From Lachnospiraceae bacterium (lineage in GTDB: Bacteria > Bacillota > Clostridia > Lachnospirales > Lachnospiraceae): DNA of 64,000 nt. The translations under genes were made by a program, and so were the position numbers. The DNA is taken from contig JAFSLV010000017.1 of assembly GCA_017448245.1 (NCBI GenBank), positions 1 to 64,000 of the forward strand, written 5' to 3'. Positions within the stretch are counted from its first letter, which is position 1; each line of letters begins with the position of its first letter. The notes under the pieces were generated by a model. It searched no databases. It saw only the letters and a list, made by a program, of their open reading frames with translations, and was not told the DNA's origin. Shown piece after piece: positions 51,660 through 63,340 of this stretch.

Positions 51660-51887
51660 AATGAAGCAGGTAAGAAAGGAGTCGGGATGACCGGATTGAT
51701 GAAAAGAAGGACTGGGCGGTGATTGTCTATCCCGACAGTCCGACCGGGTTCGCGTACATCTGGGACAACGCGCTGACGAGTAAATGACACAGGCGACAGT
51801 TATTCGTATTTCTGTAATGTCAATCTTCTGACGCTGACCGATGACGATTATGTTTTGGTTTACTATAAGAAACGGAGTAAGCAATGA
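51660..51887 (+). pseudogene. Decayed 3' fragment of a lipoprotein-like gene
   Basis: Two adjacent frames carry protein-like sequence without a start: DDRIDEKKDWAVIVYPDSP up to IWDNALTSK in one, then, shifted by one frame, NDTGDSYSYFCNVNLLTLT to YYKKRSKQ ending in TGA that overlaps the ATG of the next gene by 4 bases. The overlap is like that between intact genes of this cluster, so this is best read as a coupled gene whose 5' part was lost and which then took a frameshift. Confidence 0.5.
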
Positions 51888-53968
51888 TTTGTCCGAAGTG
51901 TCATTCGATAAACGCGGAGGGTATGCGGTTTTGCGGAAACTGCGGGACGGCGTTGTCGGTTGCGCCGCCGGTACAGCAGATGCCGCAGCAACCGCAGATG
52001 CAGGGTGCGCCGCAGGGGATGTACCGGCAGCCGCAGATGCAGGGCGCACAGCAGGTGTCGTACCAGCATGGACAGATGCAGGGGACCCCGCAGGGGGCGC
52101 ACCAGCAGCCTCAGACGCAGGGTGCGCCAAGTGGAGCGTTCGGGGGACGGTTCACGCCCGCCGGTAACACTTCGGGTGGATACGGAATGAATGGCAGCGG
52201 AAGCGGCTCCGGCGCTAAGAAAAGCTGCAATGGCTTAATCATCGGTTTGGTCGCAGGCGTGGCCACACTCGTTGTCGTAGTTGCCGTGCTTGCGGTTATG
52301 CTGCTACGCGGAAGTTCGCAGGGGACGAATGTTTCTAATGACGGAGGCAGCTACGGAACGCGCAATGCCAATACCGGAAAAACGAAACCGGAACAGACGG
52401 ACACATCGGATTCCGGTCAGTCAGCAACGGATGGGACAGGCGGTAACGGCAAAAGCCTGGCGGCGGATGCCACCTCAAAGGATGTGGCGACGTTTCTTGC
52501 CGGAGGAGAGTGGAGTTACCAGGAAAAGACACCGCCCGGACCGCCGGGACCGCGCTTCCGGTTTCATGAAGACGGTACGGTGGATTATTTTGCCCCGTCA
52601 TTCGAGTATGGGGAAAACGAGGAGCAGCCGGTTACCTGTACCGGGACATTTGATATCGGGTACAGCGATGCCGATGCAGATTTTCCGGATATGCTGACGC
52701 TCTCATTTGAAGACATTCCCGACACCGTCAAACCGCGCTATCCGGAAGTGGCAGGTGCGCATCCGGAAGCGGAGGGCGACTATCTGTTTTATCTTGGCTG
52801 CGGATCGCCGGAGAGCCCCGATTATCTGATGATTTATCCGGGGGGCAACGATAGCAATACCTTTATGAACGACGCGTTTTTTCGCATTGATTTTTCAGAA
52901 GACGGGATGCAGTCTGTTGCCGATCCCGAACACGATTACGGATTTGATGCACCCTGGCTGTATGCCCGGACAACTGACAGCAAAACCGAAACGGAATCAG
53001 AAACGGATCTGATCCTTGGCTCGTATTTTTACGCGTTTGTATGGACAACGGGGATGGACAGTGACGGCATGCTTCGCGTGAATCTTTCACACATGGAAGA
53101 AGAAGCGGTCAGTCAACCGTTCGAGGGCGCATCGAAGAATAACACCTATGTCACATATTCCTACGAGGGTGCGCCGCAGGTGCATACATACCGGATGCCG
53201 TATGAACTACTGCCGGAGAACATTGGATACGGTATTCACTATTCTGCCTCCATTGGTGCCCCGATGGTGATCCTGGCGGATGAAAACGGCGTGATTTCCA
53301 TGATGGACAATACCCATTTGGAATACATCAATCATCAGATCTGGATGTATCCGGGAATCGGTGCTGCAGGGGCTGCGGAAGAGATCTATGCACCGGTAAT
53401 CGAAGAGTACCGGAATGCTATATGGGAATATGACAATGATAAAACCTATCAGTATCTTTCAATGGGCATGGTCGAGGTTCTGAATTATTATGACAAAGAG
53501 GAAATCCAAAACGGAGCGGGATACATGATCGAGGATTTAAGCGGCGACGGTATCCCGGAGCTTCTGATCGGAGGAACGTTGGAAACGAATATATGGCCGG
53601 GGTCAGCGCTTCAGTTGTTTACCGTAAAGGATGGAGAACTTACAGAAGTTTTTCAGAGCCGGAGCCGCAGCAGTTATTCCTGGATGGGCGGAAACCGTTT
53701 TTATTACAGCGGATCAAGCGGCGCGTCAAACGTTTCGTTCGGCACGTTCCGGTTGAGCGAAGACGGAACGGAGACGAAATGGGACAGTTTCTATTTTTCG
53801 GCGCCTGCGGAAGACGGTGAGCCGATCTTTTATTTCAACACCACCGGGGAATGGGACATGGCATCGTCGGAGCGATTGGACATGGATTTTGAGGAAGTAT
53901 GGTATTTCACGGAGGTCTGGTCGCAGGAATTGGTGCAGCCGCCGTTGAAGCTGTTTGCAACCTGGTAA
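51884..53968 (+). CDS. Zinc-ribbon / Gln-rich linker / membrane helix / extracellular domain protein (copy 1)
   Basis: Single-pass membrane protein of 694 residues. Residues 1-24 form a zinc ribbon (ICPKCHSINAEGMRFCGNCG), then a linker of QPQMQGAPQG-type repeats, Gly/Ser-rich sequence and a membrane helix at about 117-140 (NGLIIGLVAGVATLVVVVAVLAVMLLRG cut short here). The rest should be outside: a Ser/Thr linker, a beta-rich unit starting EWSYQEKTPPG, and a C-terminal domain with GYMIEDLSGDGIPELLIGG, a calcium-loop-like motif shared with the gene at 61204. No enzyme motif is visible. A ribbon inside and a folded domain outside suggest sensing or scaffolding, which is inference. Confidence 0.8.
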   Translation: MICPKCHSINAEGMRFCGNCGTALSVAPPVQQMPQQPQMQGAPQGMYRQPQMQGAQQVSYQHGQMQGTPQGAHQQPQTQGAPSGAFGGRFTPAGNTSGGYGMNGSGSGSGAKKSCNGLIIGLVAGVATLVVVVAVLAVMLLRGSSQGTNVSNDGGSYGTRNANTGKTKPEQTDTSDSGQSATDGTGGNGKSLAADATSKDVATFLAGGEWSYQEKTPPGPPGPRFRFHEDGTVDYFAPSFEYGENEEQPVTCTGTFDIGYSDADADFPDMLTLSFEDIPDTVKPRYPEVAGAHPEAEGDYLFYLGCGSPESPDYLMIYPGGNDSNTFMNDAFFRIDFSEDGMQSVADPEHDYGFDAPWLYARTTDSKTETESETDLILGSYFYAFVWTTGMDSDGMLRVNLSHMEEEAVSQPFEGASKNNTYVTYSYEGAPQVHTYRMPYELLPENIGYGIHYSASIGAPMVILADENGVISMMDNTHLEYINHQIWMYPGIGAAGAAEEIYAPVIEEYRNAIWEYDNDKTYQYLSMGMVEVLNYYDKEEIQNGAGYMIEDLSGDGIPELLIGGTLETNIWPGSALQLFTVKDGELTEVFQSRSRSSYSWMGGNRFYYSGSSGASNVSFGTFRLSEDGTETKWDSFYFSAPAEDGEPIFYFNTTGEWDMASSERLDMDFEEVWYFTEVWSQELVQPPLKLFATW

Positions 53969-54009
53969 GCCGGATTGTTTTGGGTTGAGTACCGACAGGA
54001 GGAAGACGG

Positions 54010-55290
54010 ATGATTTGTCCGAAATGTAATGTTATGAACGCAGAAGGCGTGCGGTTTTGCGGAAACTGCGGGAGGGCGTTGTCTGTTGCGCCGCCGCAGC
54101 AGCCACCGATGCAGGGAACGTCGCAGGGGATGTATCAGCAGCAACCGTATCAGCAGTCGCAGATGCCGCTCTACGGAAATGGGGCTGGCGGCAAGAAAAG
54201 CGGCAAGGGCCTAATCATCGGTCTGGTCGCAGGCGCAGCTATATTGGTTGTCGTGGTTGCCGTGCTTGTGGTTATGCTTCTGCGCGGCGGCGGCACTTCC
54301 GGGGAAGGAAATACCGGCGACGGGAAAAGATATAAGGTTTCTTTTGACGGACAAACGGAAGGCCGGTTTGTAGCCGGAGAAGAGGTGAAAGTGACATATC
54401 CGCTTGCAACGGACATGGATTACTGGTTTACCAGCGATGACGTGGACTTTAAGGAGGACTATGAAGGCCATGAGGCGGTTCTCACATTCACGATGCCGGC
54501 GCACAATGTCACCATCCATGTGGAGGCGCGCAATACAATGTTGCCGCCTGAGCCGAACGGGCTGACCGTGTACGATGATCTTTTGGGAACGTGGTATCCG
54601 GAGGGGGATTATTCCGGGGAGTCGCTGACTGTTGAGCGCGACGGCTCGTTTGCCTGGAAACGGTTCTACCCGGATGATGACGAAGGTGTTGTTATCACCG
54701 GATATCTCAAATTTGAAGACGGCGAGGCGGACTGGGGCACCCCGGGACTGATCGACGGACCGCGGTTTGAGATGTACGATGATGACGGTAATTTTTTGAA
54801 TCTGGCGCTTGCTTTGGAAGAAGAAGGCGTCCACGCCGGAAAGCTCGCCATGCTTGACGGCGGAGGCGCACTTCTTTTTACGGAAGATAAGCCCAACGCG
54901 GAAACGATGGGCGAGCAAATGTCCGTACGGTATGCGGAGGATTTTGAAAACGAATACGGCAGGGATGAATATGTCTATACATACGAATGGGATGAGACAA
55001 TCGGGACAATCGTGGTGTTTTTACCGGGCGGGCCGCTTAAGGATGTTTCTTTCCTGAAGCTCGATGATTTCACTTACGAGGATGGCATCTCCCGTTTTTC
55101 TGTCCGGGAAGAATACAGCCTGGAGAGGATGGATGAACGGCAGGCTTTATATGTGGAGTTGGTGTTTCCCGGCGACACGCCGCATTTTGGCATCGCTTAT
55201 ACCGATGAAACCGGAACACGACATTATTATGCGCTGGAGGTGAGCGGCATGGACGGAAGTCTTTCTCTTGGCGCGTTTGAACCAAGGTAG
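54010..55290 (+). CDS. Zinc-ribbon / membrane helix / extracellular domain protein (copy 2)
   Basis: Same plan as the preceding gene: zinc ribbon (ICPKCNVMNAEGVRFCGNCGRAL), a short Gln-rich linker, a helix at about 71-92, then outside. The first external unit ends VLTFTMPAHNVTIHVEARN, an InlB-B-like strand also seen in the giant repeat protein. The second begins LLGTWYPEGDYSGESLTVERDGSFAW, a lipocalin-like start, and runs to the end. The N-terminal 90 residues are very close to those of copy 1, while the external parts differ, as if a common anchor had been joined to different heads. Confidence 0.8.
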   Translation: MICPKCNVMNAEGVRFCGNCGRALSVAPPQQPPMQGTSQGMYQQQPYQQSQMPLYGNGAGGKKSGKGLIIGLVAGAAILVVVVAVLVVMLLRGGGTSGEGNTGDGKRYKVSFDGQTEGRFVAGEEVKVTYPLATDMDYWFTSDDVDFKEDYEGHEAVLTFTMPAHNVTIHVEARNTMLPPEPNGLTVYDDLLGTWYPEGDYSGESLTVERDGSFAWKRFYPDDDEGVVITGYLKFEDGEADWGTPGLIDGPRFEMYDDDGNFLNLALALEEEGVHAGKLAMLDGGGALLFTEDKPNAETMGEQMSVRYAEDFENEYGRDEYVYTYEWDETIGTIVVFLPGGPLKDVSFLKLDDFTYEDGISRFSVREEYSLERMDERQALYVELVFPGDTPHFGIAYTDETGTRHYYALEVSGMDGSLSLGAFEPR

Positions 55291-55301
55291 GAGGTATCAA
55301 A

Positions 55302-56543
55302 ATGGTTTGTCCGAATTGTAATGCAGAGAACAAAGAAGGCACAAGGTTTTGTGAGTATTGCGGGACGGCGATACAGTATCAGCAATCTCCGGTGCAACTG
55401 CAGCAGACGCAGTATCAGCAGCCTTCGGTGCAACCGCAGCAAATGCAGTATCAGCAATCTCCGGCGCAGCCGCAGCAGACACAGTATCAGCAGCCTCCGA
55501 TGCATCCACCCCATGGCAACAGATCCCGTTCACGGACCCGCGCTGCGCATCCCGCGGGAAGACCGGCGGAGGGGCAAAAGATCAGCAAAAAAACCAGGGT
55601 CATACTCATTATCGCGGGTTTGGTTATCCTTGGTTTCGGAATGGCGATATCGGATGCAAACAAATCCGAAAGGGTTGAAAACATCGCGGATCAGTTGGTG
55701 GAAACGACAGTGGTTTCACCGGAGAATGAAGGCAAGCTGATTATCCTGTCCGGAATACCGCAGCTGGTGGAAGATGCGGATGTCGTTGACGCATATGCAG
55801 GTCTGCGGGCAAAAGACGTGGTGCGTTACAGCCGATTGCCCGAACAGAAGGTCTACGCGGTCGTAGAAGAGGAAGTAGTGGTTGATGAGGGGGAAAAACC
55901 GTTGGACACATCCGACGATATAACGAAAATACAGGAGGTTGTCAGAGCGGTATGGGGCAGTGCAAATTATCAGCATGAGGATGTAGATTTGCTCGGCGAA
56001 ACCTTCGAAAACCCGCCGAAAGCAGAACTGGACGAATTGTATGTGTCACATGATTATTATATCGGTGATTTTAAGATCGAGCCGCTTGATGTTTACAAAC
56101 AAGTCGAAACCGAACGCTTCGGGTTTTCAGAGGCGGAGCTTTCAGATTTGCGTGACAGATATATGCGGGATACCGGAATCAACCTGGAGATTGTAAAAGA
56201 CGGGATTGATGGCGACTTCATGCTGGTCTCCGGGGACAAGATCGGTGACATACGGGTGAAGGTTTATTATGACAAGATGAAGAAAACCTGTCCCGTGACC
56301 ATTGTCGGACGTCAGCGCGGGGACAGGATTGTGCTGGAGGAAGATGATATTGTTGACGAACACGAGCAGGTTCGTGAGGGGAAGATGACCGGAAAGGAAT
56401 TCCTGTCCGCTATCAGTGGAGAGGATAAGACATCCAGAGTGATTGGCACCGTGTTTTCGGCCGCCGGGGCGGTTATCCTTGTTCTATCCTTTGTATTGGG
56501 AAGAGGACGCAAGGTCAAGAAGCGAGACGTATTTGCGGGATGA
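55302..56543 (+). CDS. Zinc-ribbon protein with two membrane helices (copy 3)
   Basis: 413 residues. Zinc ribbon (VCPNCNAENKEGTRFCEYCG), a Gln/Pro linker built from QQSPVQLQQTQY-like repeats, an Arg-rich patch, a first helix at about 95-112 and a second near the C-terminus (VIGTVFSAAGAVILVLSFVLG) followed by KVKKRD. The segment between them (about 300 residues, acidic, VVSPENEGKLIILSG) would lie outside. This resembles TMEM43-like proteins in having an external loop between two helices, but I am not sure. The gene begins 11 bases after copy 2 and is followed by a GGGGACGG-type repeat directly at its stop. Confidence 0.78.
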   Translation: MVCPNCNAENKEGTRFCEYCGTAIQYQQSPVQLQQTQYQQPSVQPQQMQYQQSPAQPQQTQYQQPPMHPPHGNRSRSRTRAAHPAGRPAEGQKISKKTRVILIIAGLVILGFGMAISDANKSERVENIADQLVETTVVSPENEGKLIILSGIPQLVEDADVVDAYAGLRAKDVVRYSRLPEQKVYAVVEEEVVVDEGEKPLDTSDDITKIQEVVRAVWGSANYQHEDVDLLGETFENPPKAELDELYVSHDYYIGDFKIEPLDVYKQVETERFGFSEAELSDLRDRYMRDTGINLEIVKDGIDGDFMLVSGDKIGDIRVKVYYDKMKKTCPVTIVGRQRGDRIVLEEDDIVDEHEQVREGKMTGKEFLSAISGEDKTSRVIGTVFSAAGAVILVLSFVLGRGRKVKKRDVFAG

Positions 56544-56563
56544 GCCAAAAGGGACGGTTCATG
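56541..56563. repeat. GGGGACGG-family repeat at a stop codon
   Basis: TGAGCCAAAAGGGACGGTTC begins with the TGA of the preceding gene. It is followed at 56572-56589 by ACCATTGCTTTTGGTCTA, a motif seen again at 61168. Confidence 0.65.
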
Positions 56564-56618
56564 TAAGATAAACCATTGCTTTTGGTCTATAAAGTATATG
56601 TTGAACCGGAGGGGTATC

Positions 56619-56855
56619 ATGAAAAAACCAAAACACAAGATTCTGTATGGTGCGGGAATGTTGGCGATGGCACTGTCATTGACGGCGTGTGACAGGATGG
56701 AGCAAACTACGGGTGTCTATGGACCGCCGAGGGAAATGAACGAGGATGTCTACGGACCGCCGCAGGACACGACAGAGGAACAGCCGGACCCGGACGACAA
56801 CGCCACGTCTAAGGAAAAACCGGATGCGGGAAACAGTCAAACGTCCGGGGAATAA
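56619..56855 (+). CDS. Small lipoprotein with two VYGPP motifs, putative radical SAM substrate
   Basis: 78 residues. The ATG at 56619 has GGAGGGG upstream. A lipoprotein signal peptide ends at the lipobox LSLTAC, with Cys24 as the lipid site. The mature part is short and disordered, with VYGPP at 33-37 and 44-48, then an Asp/Glu/Pro-rich tail. The stop is only 2 bases before the start of a radical SAM/SPASM gene, so the two are surely co-translated. A small exported peptide with repeated short motifs next to a SPASM maturase suggests a modified peptide, with Tyr or Pro of the motifs as candidate sites. That is inference. Confidence 0.75.
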   Translation: MKKPKHKILYGAGMLAMALSLTACDRMEQTTGVYGPPREMNEDVYGPPQDTTEEQPDPDDNATSKEKPDAGNSQTSGE

Positions 56856-56857
56856 AG

Positions 56858-57946
56858 ATGATTACGAAAGAAGAATTGCACGCGTTAAAAAAGACGCAGT
56901 TAAAGAGGCATGCGGAAAACCGCAGGGCACTGCTACAGTCGCCGCATCTGGATACGCTCTTTTTAGAGCTGACATTGCGCTGTAACGAACGCTGCGTACA
57001 CTGCGGATCGTCCTGTGAGGTACAGACGCTGTCGCCGGAGCTTTCGGCGGATGATTTCAAGCGTCTGTTGAATAAAGTGCGGGAAGATTTCGCGGACGAT
57101 CTTCCACGGATTGCGGTGACCGGCGGCGAACCGCTTTTGCGGGAAGACTTCTTTGAAATCATGGCGTATGCCAAATCGCTCGGATTCCGCTGGGGCATGA
57201 CGTCCAACGGAACATTGATCACAAAAGAGGTGGCGCGGAAGTTACGGGAAACCGGGATGAGAACCGTGTCGATTTCGATTGACGGTCTGCCGGGCACGCA
57301 TGAAGCGTTCCGCAGGACGCCGGGCTCGTTTGAACGCTCCATGCGCGGGGTACAAAACCTGATTGATGAGAACTGCTTTCCCGCCATACAGGTCACAACG
57401 GTTGTCCACAAACAAAACATCGATGAACTGGACGCGATGTATGACATCTTCAAGGATGTGGATATCGATTCCTGGCGCGTGATTAACTTAGAGCCGATCG
57501 GCAGGGCGCTGGAGCATCCGGAGCTGATGCTGAAAAAAGAAGACTACCGGCGGCTGTTTGAATTTATTCGCGTAAAGCGGCGGGCGAATATCCCCGTGTT
57601 GTATGGGTGCAGCCACTTCCTTGGATTGGAATATGAGTGTGAGGTGCGCGAGTTTTACTTTATCTGCAACGCCGGAGTCTATACCGCGTCGGTACGCGCA
57701 AACGGCGACATCGGCGCGTGTCTTGATATTGAGCGCCGGCCGGAGACAACCTTCGGCAACATCCTGACGGATGACTTTACCCGCGTCTGGAAGGAGGAAT
57801 TCAGGATATTCCGGGAAGATTTTTCGAAGCGAAACGGAACCTGCCGCGCTTGTGAATGGGAAGGCTTTTGCCATGGCGGCGCCTGTCACAGCTGGGATTA
57901 CGACAAACAGAAGCAGCGTGTATGTTTCCGGGATGTTTTGTTTTAA
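56858..57946 (+). CDS. Radical SAM/SPASM peptide maturase
   Basis: Cytoplasmic iron-sulfur enzyme. The radical SAM cluster motif is LRCNERCVHCG with Cys42, Cys46 and Cys49; the SAM-binding GGEPLL and SISIDG strands follow. The C-terminal SPASM region has FICNAG ... GDIGACLD and then CRACEWEGFCHGGACHSW, the Cys set for two auxiliary clusters as in peptide-modifying enzymes. Length 362 residues is typical. There is no B12 or RRE-like domain visible. The nearest peptide-sized gene is the VYGPP lipoprotein 2 bases upstream, the most likely substrate. The reaction cannot be read from the sequence. Confidence 0.9.
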   Translation: MITKEELHALKKTQLKRHAENRRALLQSPHLDTLFLELTLRCNERCVHCGSSCEVQTLSPELSADDFKRLLNKVREDFADDLPRIAVTGGEPLLREDFFEIMAYAKSLGFRWGMTSNGTLITKEVARKLRETGMRTVSISIDGLPGTHEAFRRTPGSFERSMRGVQNLIDENCFPAIQVTTVVHKQNIDELDAMYDIFKDVDIDSWRVINLEPIGRALEHPELMLKKEDYRRLFEFIRVKRRANIPVLYGCSHFLGLEYECEVREFYFICNAGVYTASVRANGDIGACLDIERRPETTFGNILTDDFTRVWKEEFRIFREDFSKRNGTCRACEWEGFCHGGACHSWDYDKQKQRVCFRDVLF

Positions 57947-57966
57947 ACCAAAGGGGGACGGATAAC
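57944..57966. repeat. GGGGACGG-family repeat at a stop codon
   Basis: TAAACCAAAGGGGGACGGATAA begins with the TAA stop of the radical SAM gene. Confidence 0.6.
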
Positions 57967-58002
57967 GCGTTATGATAATGAGGAACGACAGGAGATAACA
58001 GG

Positions 58003-59523
58003 ATGCAGGGAAACAAAGGACTGATTATCGGACTTGTGACGGGAATTGCGGTGCTGCTGATTGTAGCAGTGGTACTGACGGTTTTGCTTGTGCGCAGAGG
58101 CGGACTATCCGGCGGCGGTGGTGATTCCGGCAAAGGAGAAACAGATGCCCCGGTACAGGCTGAAGTGTTGTTTGTGGTTGGTGAGGACATTGCGCTGTCG
58201 GATGTCACCGGCTTTGAATACTTGTTTTCGTTTTCAGGCGGCATGGCGGATTACCACGGTGAAGCCTGGTCGTTCCGGCTGGAAGACGGAACACCGATGT
58301 TTCGTTACAGGGAGGGCAACGGCTCTGAAGTAGAAAGAGAGATCGGAACCGAGGTGGAACGGACGCTGACAGAGGAAGAATGGGAGACGTTTCTTTCCTG
58401 TGTGGACGGCGGCAACATACTGGATCAGGACGCGGCATACAGCCACACGGAGTCTGCGCCGCCGGGTGTCATGGACGGCGGCGGCGGATATCGTTCCATA
58501 TGCAGTCTGACCTGGGACGGACAGAGAAAGCGGGCGCAGGATAAACGGTTCGAATATGCTTCCGACAGACAGGCGGAGGAACTGAGACAGCTGGTGTCTA
58601 AGCTGCAGGAGAAAACAGAGGATGAAACCGAATCCGGGCAGCGGGATTCAAAACAGATCGCGGTCGGCGGCTATTTTGAGTATTCCGTCCGCCTGCCAGA
58701 ACAGTGGGAGAACCGGATTATTTGGGAGACAGAACCGGCGTATGACGATGGGGGAGAGACACTGGATACAATGCTGACGCTTTATCTGAAGTCGGAGAAA
58801 GAACTGAAAAACAACGCGGGCGGGATGCTATGCAGACTGGCAATCAGGCTTAACCCGACAGCCCTGCCCACGCGTTATGAGATTGCCGGCACGCTTTTGA
58901 TGGACGGTTATTCGGTCTATCATCTGACCGCTGAGATTCCCGGCGGGGTGCAGTTTTCGACGTCTGAAACTGCCGCAGAAGCGGAGCGGTTCTACGACGA
59001 TATGGAAGAGCTGTATGATTCTGTCCGCTTCGGGTATGCAGCAACCTGGCATTATAAACCCGCTGAAACAGGTCACAGGCAGGAGGCGCTGTATTTTAAT
59101 ACACGATATGGGTATCTGTGGGCATACAGTTGTCAGGCCGATGAAACGGAACTTGCGGCGCGCGGGCTTTCCGCCTGCTATCTGGATGCGGGATATCCGG
59201 ACGGCGATGAGCGGATGAGATTCGCGCTGCATGATCTGAACGGTGACGGAACGAACGAAATGCTGGTGATGCTGGATGAGGAAGTGCGTGCAATCCATAC
59301 GATCGGTGAGGACGGAGCAGTGGTGTTGACATATTCCTGTCCCGCCGGATCGGAAATGACGGTGATGGCGGATGAAACAATCCGGGTAACATCCCCGGTG
59401 GACGGTGACAGCAGGACATACCGCTTGACAGCAGATCCGTATGGTCTTGTTGACGCAGGGACATCGCAAACGGATAAACCGCTTGTATTGCAATCGCGTC
59501 CGATGTCACCGCATGCGGAATAA
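58003..59523 (+). CDS. Membrane-anchored extracellular protein lacking the zinc ribbon (family member)
   Basis: 506 residues. It opens directly with the helix of the zinc-ribbon family (KGLIIGLVTGIAVLLIVAVV), preceded only by MQGN, so it looks like copy 1 or 2 without its ribbon and linker. A Gly-rich stretch follows, then a first external domain with LTEEEWETFLSCVDGGNILD, a second starting GGYFEYSVRLPEQWENRI (a strand pattern common in secreted hypothetical proteins), and a C-terminal domain with LHDLNGDGTNEMLVMLDEE, a calcium-loop-like motif. The ribosome site AGGAG lies 8 bases before the ATG. Confidence 0.78.
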   Translation: MQGNKGLIIGLVTGIAVLLIVAVVLTVLLVRRGGLSGGGGDSGKGETDAPVQAEVLFVVGEDIALSDVTGFEYLFSFSGGMADYHGEAWSFRLEDGTPMFRYREGNGSEVEREIGTEVERTLTEEEWETFLSCVDGGNILDQDAAYSHTESAPPGVMDGGGGYRSICSLTWDGQRKRAQDKRFEYASDRQAEELRQLVSKLQEKTEDETESGQRDSKQIAVGGYFEYSVRLPEQWENRIIWETEPAYDDGGETLDTMLTLYLKSEKELKNNAGGMLCRLAIRLNPTALPTRYEIAGTLLMDGYSVYHLTAEIPGGVQFSTSETAAEAERFYDDMEELYDSVRFGYAATWHYKPAETGHRQEALYFNTRYGYLWAYSCQADETELAARGLSACYLDAGYPDGDERMRFALHDLNGDGTNEMLVMLDEEVRAIHTIGEDGAVVLTYSCPAGSEMTVMADETIRVTSPVDGDSRTYRLTADPYGLVDAGTSQTDKPLVLQSRPMSPHAE

Positions 59524-59540
59524 TCCGGTATATCCGGATT
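59522..59540. repeat. Short palindrome after the stop codon
   Basis: AATCCGG-TATAT-CCGGATT, a perfect 7-bp stem touching the TAA stop. No T-tract follows, so it is not a clear terminator. Confidence 0.5.
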
Positions 59541-59589
59541 GGATCAGGAAGTTTCATTTCCGGCTTCTTTATAAAGAAAGGCTGACAGG

Positions 59590-61161
59590 ATGTATAAAAA
59601 AAGGGGATTAACAATCAGACTTGTGGCAGGCATTGTGCTGGTTGCCGCCCTGCTTTCCGGGTGTACCGGGACCGGAAACGGGGGGCGTGGAAACGGCGGA
59701 GGCGGCGAAAGTACGGAATCCTCCGGCGGGGGGAACGATGCAGGAAATAAGAAAAAGCGGGACCGGTACGGTGAGCTTGAGGCTATCCATTATTCACCCG
59801 GCTATGGCGATATGGACGGCGAATACCACAGCGAAACCGTCAGACGGGATGAGAATGGTGATGTTGTTTATGTGATTAAGGATCGGGAAAGCTTTAATGA
59901 GCCTGCAGTAACCAGAACCTATGACATGCCGGAAGATGCGCTGACAAGACTGGAGGATATCATTCGGGAATACGATCTTACGGATCTGGAAAACCGGAGG
60001 AAGAGCGAGCGGCTTGTTACAGACTACAGCCCTTGGTCATATCAGTTTGTTTTCGAAAAGGACAACGTCCGTTTAACTGAGTTTCGCCGCTATAAAAAGA
60101 AAGACCTGGAACATTTGAAGGAACTGATGGATACAGCCCATGCCATGCGAGGCGAACTGATTTCGACAGAGAAGGAGGGAGATGATGAGGTCAGTGCCCC
60201 GGATACGGAACAGATTTTAAAAGCGTATGCGGATATCCTGCGGGAAACGGCGGGCATGGAAGACATTAGTGAGGAGGCATCCTTTGCCATGGGCTATATA
60301 GATGACGATGATATACCGGAGCTTCTGGTTGCAGAGAATTCGGGTCAAGCTGACGGCATTCACGTGTATGCCTTCAAAGATGGCAGTGTGATTGATTGCG
60401 GTTATTTTGGCCATTACGGCGGCTTTATGCGTTATCTGCCGCGGGAGGGGCTGATCAGCACGTATTATATGTGGATGGGCGTGGAGGTTGAAAGCTACGC
60501 CACATTAAAGAACGGGGAGGTCGAATGGACTCGGAGCATTGCGCGACAGGAAGTGTATTATCCGGAAAACGACAGCTACGATTATACATACACAATTGAT
60601 AAAGAGGAGGTCACACTGGAAGCATACGAGCGTGCGCTGGATGCCTATGCGGATCGTCTGGATGATTTTGTATTTCCTGAAATAAGCAGGATGATGCCTT
60701 TGGGGAAAGCCGCGGATTATCAGGAAGCGCTGCGTCCGTTTCTGGAGGTGGACTATCTGTACCGTCTTCTTGCGGGAGACGATGAGGCCGGCGGGACGCA
60801 GGATGAAGAAGACATTGCCGAACAAAACTTCCGATACTCACACGGCGGCTATTCCAGAGAGGAATTCATTGCGTATGTATACGGTACCATGTGGGCCAAG
60901 AACGGCGATGAAAACAGCGCGATAGTGGATCTGTGGGAAGACGGTACCTTTATTGCCGTGGAAGGTATGGGCGGCGTTGTGGAGGCAATCGGAACCTATG
61001 AATTCCGGGCGGATCTGTATGGACCGCATCGCCCCTTCCTGTTTACTATGTATCGTGAGGATGGCAGCGTGTTTACCGAATTTGAGCTGGTTTACAGCCA
61101 CAATCTGGAAGGTGAGATTGTTCTGTTTTTCGGAGATAACATATACCGGCGGATTTATTGA
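59590..61161 (+). CDS. Lipoprotein with C-terminal calcium-loop-like domain
   Basis: 523 residues. Lipoprotein signal peptide MYKKRGLTIRLVAGIVLVAA with lipobox LLSGC, then a Gly-rich linker. The first external domain holds EDALTRLEDIIREYDLTDLENR, matching the corresponding part of secreted hypothetical proteins in this cluster. The central domain has SFAMGYIDDDDIPELLVAEN, the same D-x-D-x-(I)PELL pattern as the genes at 51884 and 61204. The C-terminal domain (VDLWEDGTFIAVEG) is lipocalin-like. No catalytic motif was found. Confidence 0.8.
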   Translation: MYKKRGLTIRLVAGIVLVAALLSGCTGTGNGGRGNGGGGESTESSGGGNDAGNKKKRDRYGELEAIHYSPGYGDMDGEYHSETVRRDENGDVVYVIKDRESFNEPAVTRTYDMPEDALTRLEDIIREYDLTDLENRRKSERLVTDYSPWSYQFVFEKDNVRLTEFRRYKKKDLEHLKELMDTAHAMRGELISTEKEGDDEVSAPDTEQILKAYADILRETAGMEDISEEASFAMGYIDDDDIPELLVAENSGQADGIHVYAFKDGSVIDCGYFGHYGGFMRYLPREGLISTYYMWMGVEVESYATLKNGEVEWTRSIARQEVYYPENDSYDYTYTIDKEEVTLEAYERALDAYADRLDDFVFPEISRMMPLGKAADYQEALRPFLEVDYLYRLLAGDDEAGGTQDEEDIAEQNFRYSHGGYSREEFIAYVYGTMWAKNGDENSAIVDLWEDGTFIAVEGMGGVVEAIGTYEFRADLYGPHRPFLFTMYREDGSVFTEFELVYSHNLEGEIVLFFGDNIYRRIY

Positions 61162-61203
61162 TCTTTCACCATTGTTTTGGTCTAAGAAAAGGGAGGGACA
61201 ACG

Positions 61204-62667
61204 ATGGCAGTTTGTATCAAATGCGGTGCACAGATTGCGGACGGATCGGCGTTTTGCAGCAACTGCGGGACACGGCAAAATATGCAGCAACAATATCAGC
61301 AGGCACCGCAGATGCAGCCACAGTGGATGCAGTCGCCGCCAACACAGGATGCGCTGCAGGAGATGTATCAACAGCAATCGATGCAGGGTGCGCCAAGAGA
61401 AGCGTCCGGGGGACGGTACACGCCCACCGGCTACATATCGGGTGGATACGGCATGAACAGTGGCGGAAATGACGGTAAGAAGAGCGGCAAGGGACTTGTC
61501 ATCGCTTTGATTGCCGGCATCGTGGTGCTCATCGCGGTGATCGCCGTGCTTGGGTTCATGCTGCTGCGCGGCAAGCCGGGCGGAGGCGAAGGGAATACCA
61601 GCAATACAAAGGTGACGCGTGAAGCGTCCACGGAAGCGACAACCAAAAACACAACCGGAACAACATCGGATGACGGGGCTACAGATCAGTCTGTTGCGGA
61701 AGTATCGAAAGAAGATATTGCCGCAATGGCCGGCTATTACGAATCCCGGGAGATGCCGTGGGTGATTTTTATCAATGCAGACGGTTCGTATCAGTCCCGT
61801 ACGCTGAGAACGAATCTTGAGGAGAGCGGAACCTGGGAGGCGGTATATGCGGATCGTGGTGACGGCGAGATGGTTAAAATGGTGTATCTGTATCAGGATG
61901 ACACGGACGAGGATGACAATACGCCCCTGATCTGGATCGAAGAAGAGCATGGCTTTATCATCGGCCCCTGGGAAGGGAAAAACGGAATATACCAGCATCT
62001 TGATCCGAAGCCTTATCCCAAAGCAACAGACGGGGATTTGAAAGCGGATGCAGAGGAAGGCCTGTACCGTCCGGTCCTGCAGGAAACATATGAAATTGTC
62101 CGGAACGGTTGGGATGAAAATGCGGACTATTCTTACCTGTCGTCAGGGCTGATGGAGAGCCTGATGTATCCGGAAAACAGAAACCTCATGGAAAGTGTGG
62201 GATACCTGATAGAGGATATCAGCGGCGACGGTATTCCGGAACTTCTGATCGGTGAAACGGCTGATTATGAATATGATAATGAGGGCGAAAAAAGTTTTAT
62301 CTTCAAAGCCTATACCTGCAGGGACGGCAAATTGGTTGAGATTTTTGAAGGATGGGGACGCAGCAGCTATCAGTGGATGAGTGCTAACAGCTTCTTCCAT
62401 TACGGTTCGGGCGGTGCGTCGAACAGCCTGTTTGCAAGGGCACATCTTAGTAAAGACGGTACGGAACTGATCTGGGATGAAGTCTATCTGACAGATGAAG
62501 TGTTTCCGGACGGACTGGGGATCTTCTATAATACGACAGGCTCCTCAGATTCAGCAGATTCCGAAAAACTGGACATCACACAGAATGAGTTTTGGGAAAT
62601 TATGCATGGTATGGAGGATGCGTGTAAAATCATCCCGTTTACACCGATCGGGGAGTTTGAACCGTGA
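61204..62667 (+). CDS. Zinc-ribbon / Gln-rich linker / membrane helix / extracellular domain protein (copy 4)
   Basis: 487 residues. Zinc ribbon (VCIKCGAQIADGSAFCSNCG), Gln/Met-rich linker, a GGYGMNSGG segment nearly identical to copy 1, a helix at about 98-121 and a Thr-rich stalk. Outside there is a lipocalin-like unit (MAGYYESREMPWVIFINADGSY) and a C-terminal domain homologous to that of copy 1 (GYLIEDISGDGIPELLIG ... SSYQWMSANSFFHYGSGGASN). It is the fullest paralogue of copy 1, separated from it by the lipoprotein and radical SAM genes. Confidence 0.82.
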   Translation: MAVCIKCGAQIADGSAFCSNCGTRQNMQQQYQQAPQMQPQWMQSPPTQDALQEMYQQQSMQGAPREASGGRYTPTGYISGGYGMNSGGNDGKKSGKGLVIALIAGIVVLIAVIAVLGFMLLRGKPGGGEGNTSNTKVTREASTEATTKNTTGTTSDDGATDQSVAEVSKEDIAAMAGYYESREMPWVIFINADGSYQSRTLRTNLEESGTWEAVYADRGDGEMVKMVYLYQDDTDEDDNTPLIWIEEEHGFIIGPWEGKNGIYQHLDPKPYPKATDGDLKADAEEGLYRPVLQETYEIVRNGWDENADYSYLSSGLMESLMYPENRNLMESVGYLIEDISGDGIPELLIGETADYEYDNEGEKSFIFKAYTCRDGKLVEIFEGWGRSSYQWMSANSFFHYGSGGASNSLFARAHLSKDGTELIWDEVYLTDEVFPDGLGIFYNTTGSSDSADSEKLDITQNEFWEIMHGMEDACKIIPFTPIGEFEP

Positions 62668-62755: not shown

Positions 62756-63340
62756 ATGAAACAGGGTATGATCGCATTCAGGCGCATTTGCCTGCCTATG
62801 GCGGGTGTCATGCTCCTGACCGCATGTGGTGGACATTTAGAAATCGACGACGGTGCCGGACGCCGTCCGCCGGAGACGTTTACGGAACAGGCCGGCGCAT
62901 ATGAGAAAGAGATGGAAGAAATCATGTCCCGGACAGGTCCCGTCCTGCCGGAAGAAATCAGCAGGATGGCGGAGGATTTGTTTGACGGGATCAATGCGGA
63001 GCGGAAGAAAAGCAGACGCGAGGAGCTGGCCTGTTCAACGAACCTTTCGGATTTTGGCAGGGTAAGAATCAGAGAGATCATCAGATCTTTCTCACACACC
63101 AGACCAAATGGGGAACCCTTCTGGGGCGTGGAATATGAGGGCAGCGTCCGGGTTCTGGGAGAAATCTTTTTCAGAACAAACGGTGCTTCCAAAAACGTCA
63201 CTCAGACATTCATGAAATCAGAAGCACACAGAGAGCTAATTCTGGATTCTGCTTTTCATACCATTGGAATCTGCGTGGAAAAAAAGAGTCATGGTGAATA
63301 CCAATTTGTGATTCTGTTCGGAGGGAACGAAAATGACTAA
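62756..63340 (+). CDS. CAP/SCP-domain lipoprotein
   Basis: 194 residues. Signal peptide with lipobox MLLTAC (Cys at 24). After an acidic linker the CAP-like core shows LFDGINAERKKSRREELACSTNLSDFGRVR, the conserved FSHTRPNGEPF, GEIFF, and FMKSEAHRELILDSAFHTIGICV, the same order as in the CAP protein at 13393. The start has AGAGGAGG upstream. The 3' end overlaps the next gene by 8 bases. Confidence 0.88.
   Translation: MKQGMIAFRRICLPMAGVMLLTACGGHLEIDDGAGRRPPETFTEQAGAYEKEMEEIMSRTGPVLPEEISRMAEDLFDGINAERKKSRREELACSTNLSDFGRVRIREIIRSFSHTRPNGEPFWGVEYEGSVRVLGEIFFRTNGASKNVTQTFMKSEAHRELILDSAFHTIGICVEKKSHGEYQFVILFGGNEND

Follow-up and report, generated by a model that had tools for sequence, protein, structure and literature searches.

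A radical SAM/SPASM enzyme and its Tyr-Gly-Pro-tagged partner proteins in Lachnospiraceae: a candidate protein-modification system

What does a radical SAM/SPASM enzyme act on when the gene in front of it encodes a lipoprotein? Dedicated small precursors are the usual substrates of radical SAM enzymes that modify peptides. The question is raised by two genes in a 64,000-nucleotide stretch of Lachnospiraceae DNA (the window), in which an earlier note had recognized a 78-residue lipoprotein with two VYGPP repeats encoded 2 bases ahead of a SPASM enzyme and had proposed a lipid-anchored modified peptide. Both genes are present as described (Table 1). The likely answer is a two-gene post-translational modification system in which resident proteins carry Tyr-Gly-Pro tags that the enzyme would change by oxidation. 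The observations behind it are the gene pair, its close co-occurrence across genomes, a near-invariant Tyr-Gly, the portability of the tag, a conserved catalytic Cys set, and a syntenic lipoprotein that has no tag in a single genome without the enzyme. What is new is a common tag on at least three kinds of carrier; the family of which the system is a variant had been named in silico, and the modification is predicted.

The gene pair in the window

A GGAGG sequence lies 5' of the lipoprotein start codon. The lipobox of the protein reads SLTA-C24, and its VYGPP motifs occupy residues 33-37 and 44-48, starting 9 and 20 residues past the lipid Cys. The gene ends with TAA, and the ATG of the enzyme gene follows the gap. 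The lipoprotein matched no Pfam family and had no significant NCBIfam match. The repeat stands above chance because the codons of its two copies differ synonymously and because the pair is kept across genomes. A chance repeat as the source of VYGPP is also ruled out by the co-occurrence of enzyme and tag described below.

Table 1. Coordinates of the lipoprotein gene, the enzyme gene, and their motifs in the window
Feature	Position	Strand	Remarks
Lipoprotein of 78 aa, presumed substrate	56619..56855	+	lipobox Cys24, two VYGPP, acidic polar tail
VYGPP motif 1 (GTC TAT GGA CCG CCG)	56715..56729	+	
VYGPP motif 2 (GTC TAC GGA CCG CCG)	56748..56762	+	
Radical SAM/SPASM enzyme of 362 aa	56858..57946	+	sub-cutoff relative of TIGR04133 (rSAM_w_lipo), no RRE domain
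Radical SAM cluster motif CNERCVHCGSSC (CxxxCxxCGSxC)	56981..57016	+	shared with 17 clade members and three TIGR04133-type enzymes
SPASM region C251 to C356	57608..57925	+	C251, C270, C288, C329, C332, C338, H344, C356; Pfam SPASM

The enzyme belongs to the radical SAM/SPASM superfamily. It matches Pfam Radical_SAM (2.8e-25; 89.8 bits against a gathering score of 29.5) and SPASM (2.2e-8; 34.7 bits against 21.5), and its cluster stretch reads CNERCVHC. The full Cys sets that had been attributed to it are there in part: the radical SAM cysteines C42/C46/C49 and six SPASM cysteines (C270, C288, C329, C332, C338, and C356) are present, but the canonical SPASM CX3C place lacks its Cys, and C343 of the window enzyme is not conserved. 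A PDB sequence search with the enzyme returned distant radical SAM proteins only, and a structure predicted from two alignment rows was of low confidence (mean pLDDT 49.4).

The pair is flanked by genes for four proteins in which an N-terminal zinc ribbon (Zn_Ribbon_1, over cut-off) is combined with a low-complexity linker; they start at 51884, 54010, 55302, and 61204 and span 51884-62664. Zinc-ribbon-like ORFs lie near the enzymes of several relatives too. Further along, at 62756-63340, lies a gene for a small CAP-domain protein (PF00188) that resembles a lipoprotein.

Distribution of the enzyme and its tagged partners

Of 299 genomes sampled across the GTDB family, 18 have the enzyme (E<=1e-45), and the copies other than the window's are 39-58% identical to the window enzyme; the enzyme is also present in 18 of the 61 genomes of a genus sample, one of which has two copies. 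A phylum-wide search with an enzyme profile matched 2 of 398 genomes at E<=1e-60, both from the window's family. A contig search with a single sequence returned one sole relative, in an Oscillospiraceae metagenome-assembled genome (MAG). The TIGR04133 model was non-discriminating at the phylum level, with matches in 143 of 149 genomes and none over its cut-off. In a plasmid collection, 45 records had an enzyme match; four were read (Parabacteroides, Treponema, Phocaeicola, and Agathobacter), the last of which served as an outgroup only.

The surroundings of the enzyme were read at 18 family loci and in the Oscillospiraceae MAG. An adjacent carrier of the tag was present in 15 of the 18 family genomes. 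At nine of the 18 loci, including the window, the gene ahead of the enzyme encodes a small lipoprotein bearing 1 to 7 YGPP tags, and at one of these nine there are two tagged lipoprotein genes in tandem. One further locus has a YGPAP lipoprotein, and in G337 a YAPPP lipoprotein lies just downstream of an enzyme frame that is incomplete at its front. Other carriers are not lipoproteins. In G385 a DUF805-type membrane protein (confirmed by Pfam) has the tag in its C-terminal part, as does its counterpart in the Oscillospiraceae MAG, which was assigned by likeness. A zinc-ribbon protein with IYGP[P/M/K]P is found at three of the 18 loci (the one that was scanned is confirmed by Pfam). Carriers also occur in trans: in G268 a zinc-ribbon carrier and a DUF805 carrier, the latter with three tags, lie on contigs other than that of the enzyme, and G264 also has a carrier in trans. 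In G264 a second lipoprotein, encoded in trans (L101:4042-4875), has its tag past the lipid Cys (SSVYGPPP), and the long remainder matches no Pfam family, a layout that resembles TIGR04134 partners. G328 combines a lipoprotein carrier with a zinc-ribbon carrier.

A rule that the carrier is always a lipoprotein is thus broken by the DUF805 and zinc-ribbon proteins. The idea of a lipid-anchored modified peptide survives as a conserved pair, but the anchor is not essential to it. Similarly, most VYGPP lipoproteins neighbor this enzyme clade, but G268 and G264 have carriers in trans.

In two genomes with an enzyme homologue, G413 and G189, a carrier was looked for and not found. The G413 enzyme (L069) is a divergent protein of 525 aa whose ~190 additional C-terminal residues match no Pfam family. 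The G189 homologue (L068) falls near the DUF805 clade, and like the G337 frame it lacks the CxxxCxxC stretch; with no YGPP carrier found, it is possibly a decaying system.

A genus set of 18 further enzymes from 17 genomes was collected by the enzyme alone. All 18 have an adjacent Tyr-Gly carrier, of which 15 are lipoproteins and three are of the zinc-ribbon type. YGPP or YGPAP is present in 15 of the 18 carriers; the three others, from G702 and G736, are degenerate (YGPS; YGSG with YGSP; YGPC). In 13 of the 15 lipoproteins the first tag Tyr lies 2 or 3 residues past the lipid cysteine, and in 10 the last tag Tyr is 6 to 9 residues short of the C-terminus. In G702 (L195) two ORFs lie downstream of the second enzyme: one is zinc-ribbon-like, 228 aa long, and contains YGPC, and the other is 385 aa long and contains YGAP.

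The class of carrier tracks the clade of the enzyme. Enzymes linked to lipoproteins, DUF805 proteins, and ribbon proteins each lie on one side of a branch, and the tree needs three changes of carrier class, the minimum, against a mean of 8.4 after shuffling (none of 200 shuffles reached so low a number); branch supports are moderate (74-94), five rows fall in no group, and the DUF805 label of G268 rests on its carrier in trans.

Does the tagged lipoprotein occur where the enzyme does not? A profile of the YGPP lipoproteins matched 12 of the 299 family genomes at E<=1e-5, all among the 18 with the enzyme, and none of the 281 without it (Fisher 2e-17). The profile was built from 11 rows out of 10 of the 18 enzyme genomes, and 10 of the 12 positives are therefore by construction; the independent part of the test is the 281 negatives and two new matches, G385 and G268, both with DUF805 carriers. 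Weaker matches up to 0.1 occurred in 80 more genomes; judged by position in the part that was read, these look like signal peptides. The zinc-ribbon carrier was found in five of the 299 genomes (E<=1e-8), all of them enzyme-bearing and two with the carrier in trans. A second profile, made mostly from genus lipoproteins, matched 15 of the 61 genus genomes at E<=1e-10, all enzyme-bearing, and none of the 43 without the enzyme. Seven enzyme-less genus genomes gave matches of 7e-6 to 7e-4, of which two were read: one (G724) is an ordinary solute-binding-type lipoprotein, and the other (G705) is described below. Widespread occurrence of the lipoprotein without the enzyme, the outcome that would have spoken against the earlier note, is thus not seen at these thresholds, and the two genes behave as a linked system.

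Further evidence comes from the DNA. A VYGPP pattern had 42 sites in the 18 enzyme genomes versus seven in 18 chosen enzyme-less genomes, and the reversed pattern had 31 versus 63. At least one site in any frame was present in 99 of the 299 genomes, 87 of them among the 281 enzyme-less ones, which is what a degenerate 14-base pattern would give. None of 34 enzyme-less sites that were read (five frames in full) is a small tagged lipoprotein; most are short or implausible frames, and a few are single sites in longer ORFs, such as those in G161 and G427. One genome with no enzyme match, G420 (L154), encodes a membrane-type protein whose acidic tail contains FVYGPPEMP; this site looks like a genuine tag, possibly one without an enzyme or the partner of a more distant one. 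In another, G442 (L169:1-130), a repeat at a contig end gives RHPRWPQVHDTEPVYGPPC twice in a 42-aa frame that is probably not a gene.

Relation to TIGR04133 and TIGR04134

The best NCBIfam match of the window enzyme is TIGR04133 (rSAM_w_lipo; E 9.4e-84), a family whose partner lipoproteins are described by TIGR04134. This system was reportedly named by Haft and Basu in 2011, and our literature search found no paper on TIGR04133/TIGR04134, on YGPP, or on a lipoprotein system of the window type. A lipobox on the substrate had been regarded as unusual; a lipoprotein partner is in fact already known in TIGR04133/TIGR04134. Membership by score was rejected. The enzyme reaches 281.3 of the 425 bits set as the curated cut-off (Parabacteroides and Treponema enzymes, as positive controls, reach 607.9 and 451.4 bits), and its partner has no TIGR04134 match, nor does any protein in the window's own genome at E<=10. 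Across the 35 enzyme-bearing genomes, none had a TIGR04134 match over the cut-off of 39.8 bits, both control records did, and nine of the 35 had weak matches (E 0.002 to 0.11).

The plasmid records nevertheless show how alike the systems are. Parabacteroides distasonis and Treponema saccharophilum carry TIGR04133 enzymes, and Phocaeicola massiliensis carries an unscored relative. The lipoproteins adjoining these three TIGR04133-type enzymes have a Tyr-Gly motif, as do those of the window clade, and it lies near the lipid Cys (CEYGSP in Parabacteroides, SCYGMP in Treponema, and CEYGTP in Phocaeicola). Tyr-Gly after the lipid Cys, a criterion for TIGR04133/TIGR04134 that is proposed here and not published, was found in the window system. 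The lipoprotein gene precedes the enzyme gene in Parabacteroides and Treponema, as in the window, whereas the order is reversed in Phocaeicola. The enzymes share CxxxCxHCGSxC, C251, C270, C288, C329, C332, C338, H344, and C356, a set that excludes the clade members without the stretch; the CxxxCxxCGSxC pattern is present in the 17 clade members that keep the stretch and in the three TIGR04133-type enzymes, and the alignment shows His344, Cys53, and Cys251 conserved across the clade and these three. The systems also differ. The Parabacteroides and Treponema partners match TIGR04134 as well as folded domains, and have a single Tyr-Gly-x-Pro before a carboxypeptidase-regulatory or Ig-like domain. 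In contrast, the window clade has Tyr-Gly-Pro-Pro, in up to 7 copies on an acidic chain in relatives, and has DUF805, zinc-ribbon, and trans carriers.

Judged from these sequences, the window system and TIGR04133/TIGR04134 very likely share tag and chemistry, with neither curated cut-off reached. There is about an even chance that both belong to one wider system, in which one enzyme serves a portable Tyr-Gly-(x)-Pro tag on unrelated resident proteins of the same cell, in cis and in trans, and TIGR04133/TIGR04134 of Bacteroidota and Treponema form one branch. In that branch the tag would sit between a lipid anchor and a folded domain. TIGR04133-type enzymes thereby gain a concrete predicted substrate motif, Tyr-Gly-x-Pro, together with predicted substrates in trans, and the function of the family becomes directly testable by mass spectrometry.

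The tag and its predicted modification

The tag was tallied at 87 sites in 42 carriers, three of which are of the TIGR04134 type. Tyr is present in 87 of 87 sites and Gly in 86. Pro follows at +2 in 82 (the rest being S, S, T, M, and V) and at +3 in 76, frequencies that are partly due to selection, as a site had to have Y-G, or YAPPP, and a Pro between +2 and +4. The tally leaves out ten other YG dipeptides, including the degenerate tag that comes first in L196, and it includes at least one site that is probably incidental (AYGPR in a folded part of one G264 protein). The residue at -1 is Val in 56 sites and Gly in seven. A strict VYGPP rule was therefore dropped, given the variation at -1 and +3, and the degenerate tags of G702 and G736 together with YAPPP in G337 indicate that PP is no absolute requirement. 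Repeats within one gene differ by synonymous codons, so it is the protein sequence of the tag that is conserved. A tag of about four residues appears to recur on structurally unrelated and permanent-looking proteins, some of the envelope and some apparently cytosolic.

How would such a tag be modified? We infer that it is the site on which the enzyme acts and that modification precedes export. Lacking an RRE domain, the radical SAM/SPASM enzyme would recognize the tag, a short Tyr-Gly-Pro-Pro, where resident proteins are unstructured and while they are still cytosolic, and would make an oxidative SAM-dependent change within Tyr-Gly-Pro. The window carrier would then be exported and lipidated, placing the modified tags outside and tethered to the membrane. 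Zinc-ribbon carriers, which have no signal peptide by eye, support the cytosolic step. The best guess for the product is a cross-link, an i/i+2 Tyr cyclophane, because Tyr is invariant, +1 is Gly, and the +2 residue always has a beta carbon. The three-residue cyclophane, in which Tyr C3 is joined to the C-beta of residue i+2, is a known SPASM product according to the accessible part of PMC11002830, which also describes the triceptide SPASM enzymes XncB, YxdB, YhhB, and ScaB as acting on short aromatic motifs. Tyr-Gly-X fits this i/i+2 layout, but Pro as the third residue is not among the examples given in that part of the source, and here the carriers resemble resident proteins of the envelope and of the zinc-ribbon type. 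Desaturation, epimerization, or a bond to Gly may be the outcome instead.

Could the tag be a docking site only, which recruits the enzyme to change some other part of the carrier (the linker, for instance) or a different target? Like docking motifs, the tag is short, repeated, and portable, and its flank often has Glu at +4 (31/87) and Phe at +6 (25/87); the spacing of the window tags from the lipid Cys is in keeping with this as well. However, nothing else was seen to be common to the lipoproteins, DUF805 proteins, and zinc ribbons, and the lipoprotein linkers align poorly. Docking alone therefore appears rather unlikely.

It is improbable that the pair is a classic RiPP system, in which the tail of the lipoprotein would be cut off and set free to act as a signal or bacteriocin. 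A small precursor encoded next to a SPASM maturase does match the usual RiPP arrangement (PMC11002830). But the Pfam scan of the enzyme and its nine window neighbors returned no leader-binding RRE, protease, or exporter over cut-off, in line with the earlier remark that no exporter or protease gene is adjacent; the single M23 match was sub-threshold (E 0.0053). A lipobox stands in place of a leader, and relatives bear the tag on membrane and zinc-ribbon proteins. The enzyme thus probably alters the tag chemically as part of a protein-modification system, and not as the maturase of a classic peptide antibiotic.

There is little to favor an AhbD- or NirJ-like enzyme that acts on a tetrapyrrole or another small molecule with the lipoprotein as an accessory: after TIGR04133 the NCBIfam ranking continues with AhbD (haem b synthase; 177 bits) and NirJ2 (154 bits), but these are ~100 bits lower, no haem gene is among the nine neighbors scanned, and the co-occurrence with the tag would be left unexplained. 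The mycofactocin maturase MftC, also a SPASM enzyme, acts on a C-terminal Val-Tyr with the help of the chaperone MftB. That a small redox cofactor is similarly cut from a Val-Tyr unit of the lipoprotein is hardly credible, for although TIGR03962 is among the closer families (139 bits) and Val often precedes Tyr, TIGR04133 is the closest (281 bits), the tags are internal and often multiple, -1 can be Gly, and no MftB-like neighbor was found by Pfam among the nine.

For modification of the tag itself, a natural comparison is offered by G750, which has the enzyme, and G705 (completeness 100), which has no enzyme match. The right flank of a G705 locus is syntenic with the G750 enzyme locus (three genes at 80-95% identity and one at ~42%); the enzyme is absent from it, the best tblastn remnant having an E of 0.9. 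A 134-aa lipoprotein at this locus is 38% identical to the G750 lipoprotein over 148 aa. In this comparison, which is of one event in a Ser-rich low-complexity protein whose left flank is not conserved and in which the direction of change is unpolarized, both YGPP tags are missing from G705: CGAYGPP of G750 corresponds to CTNNQ, and PVPTVYGPPVTDR corresponds to LPDPTVEVR.
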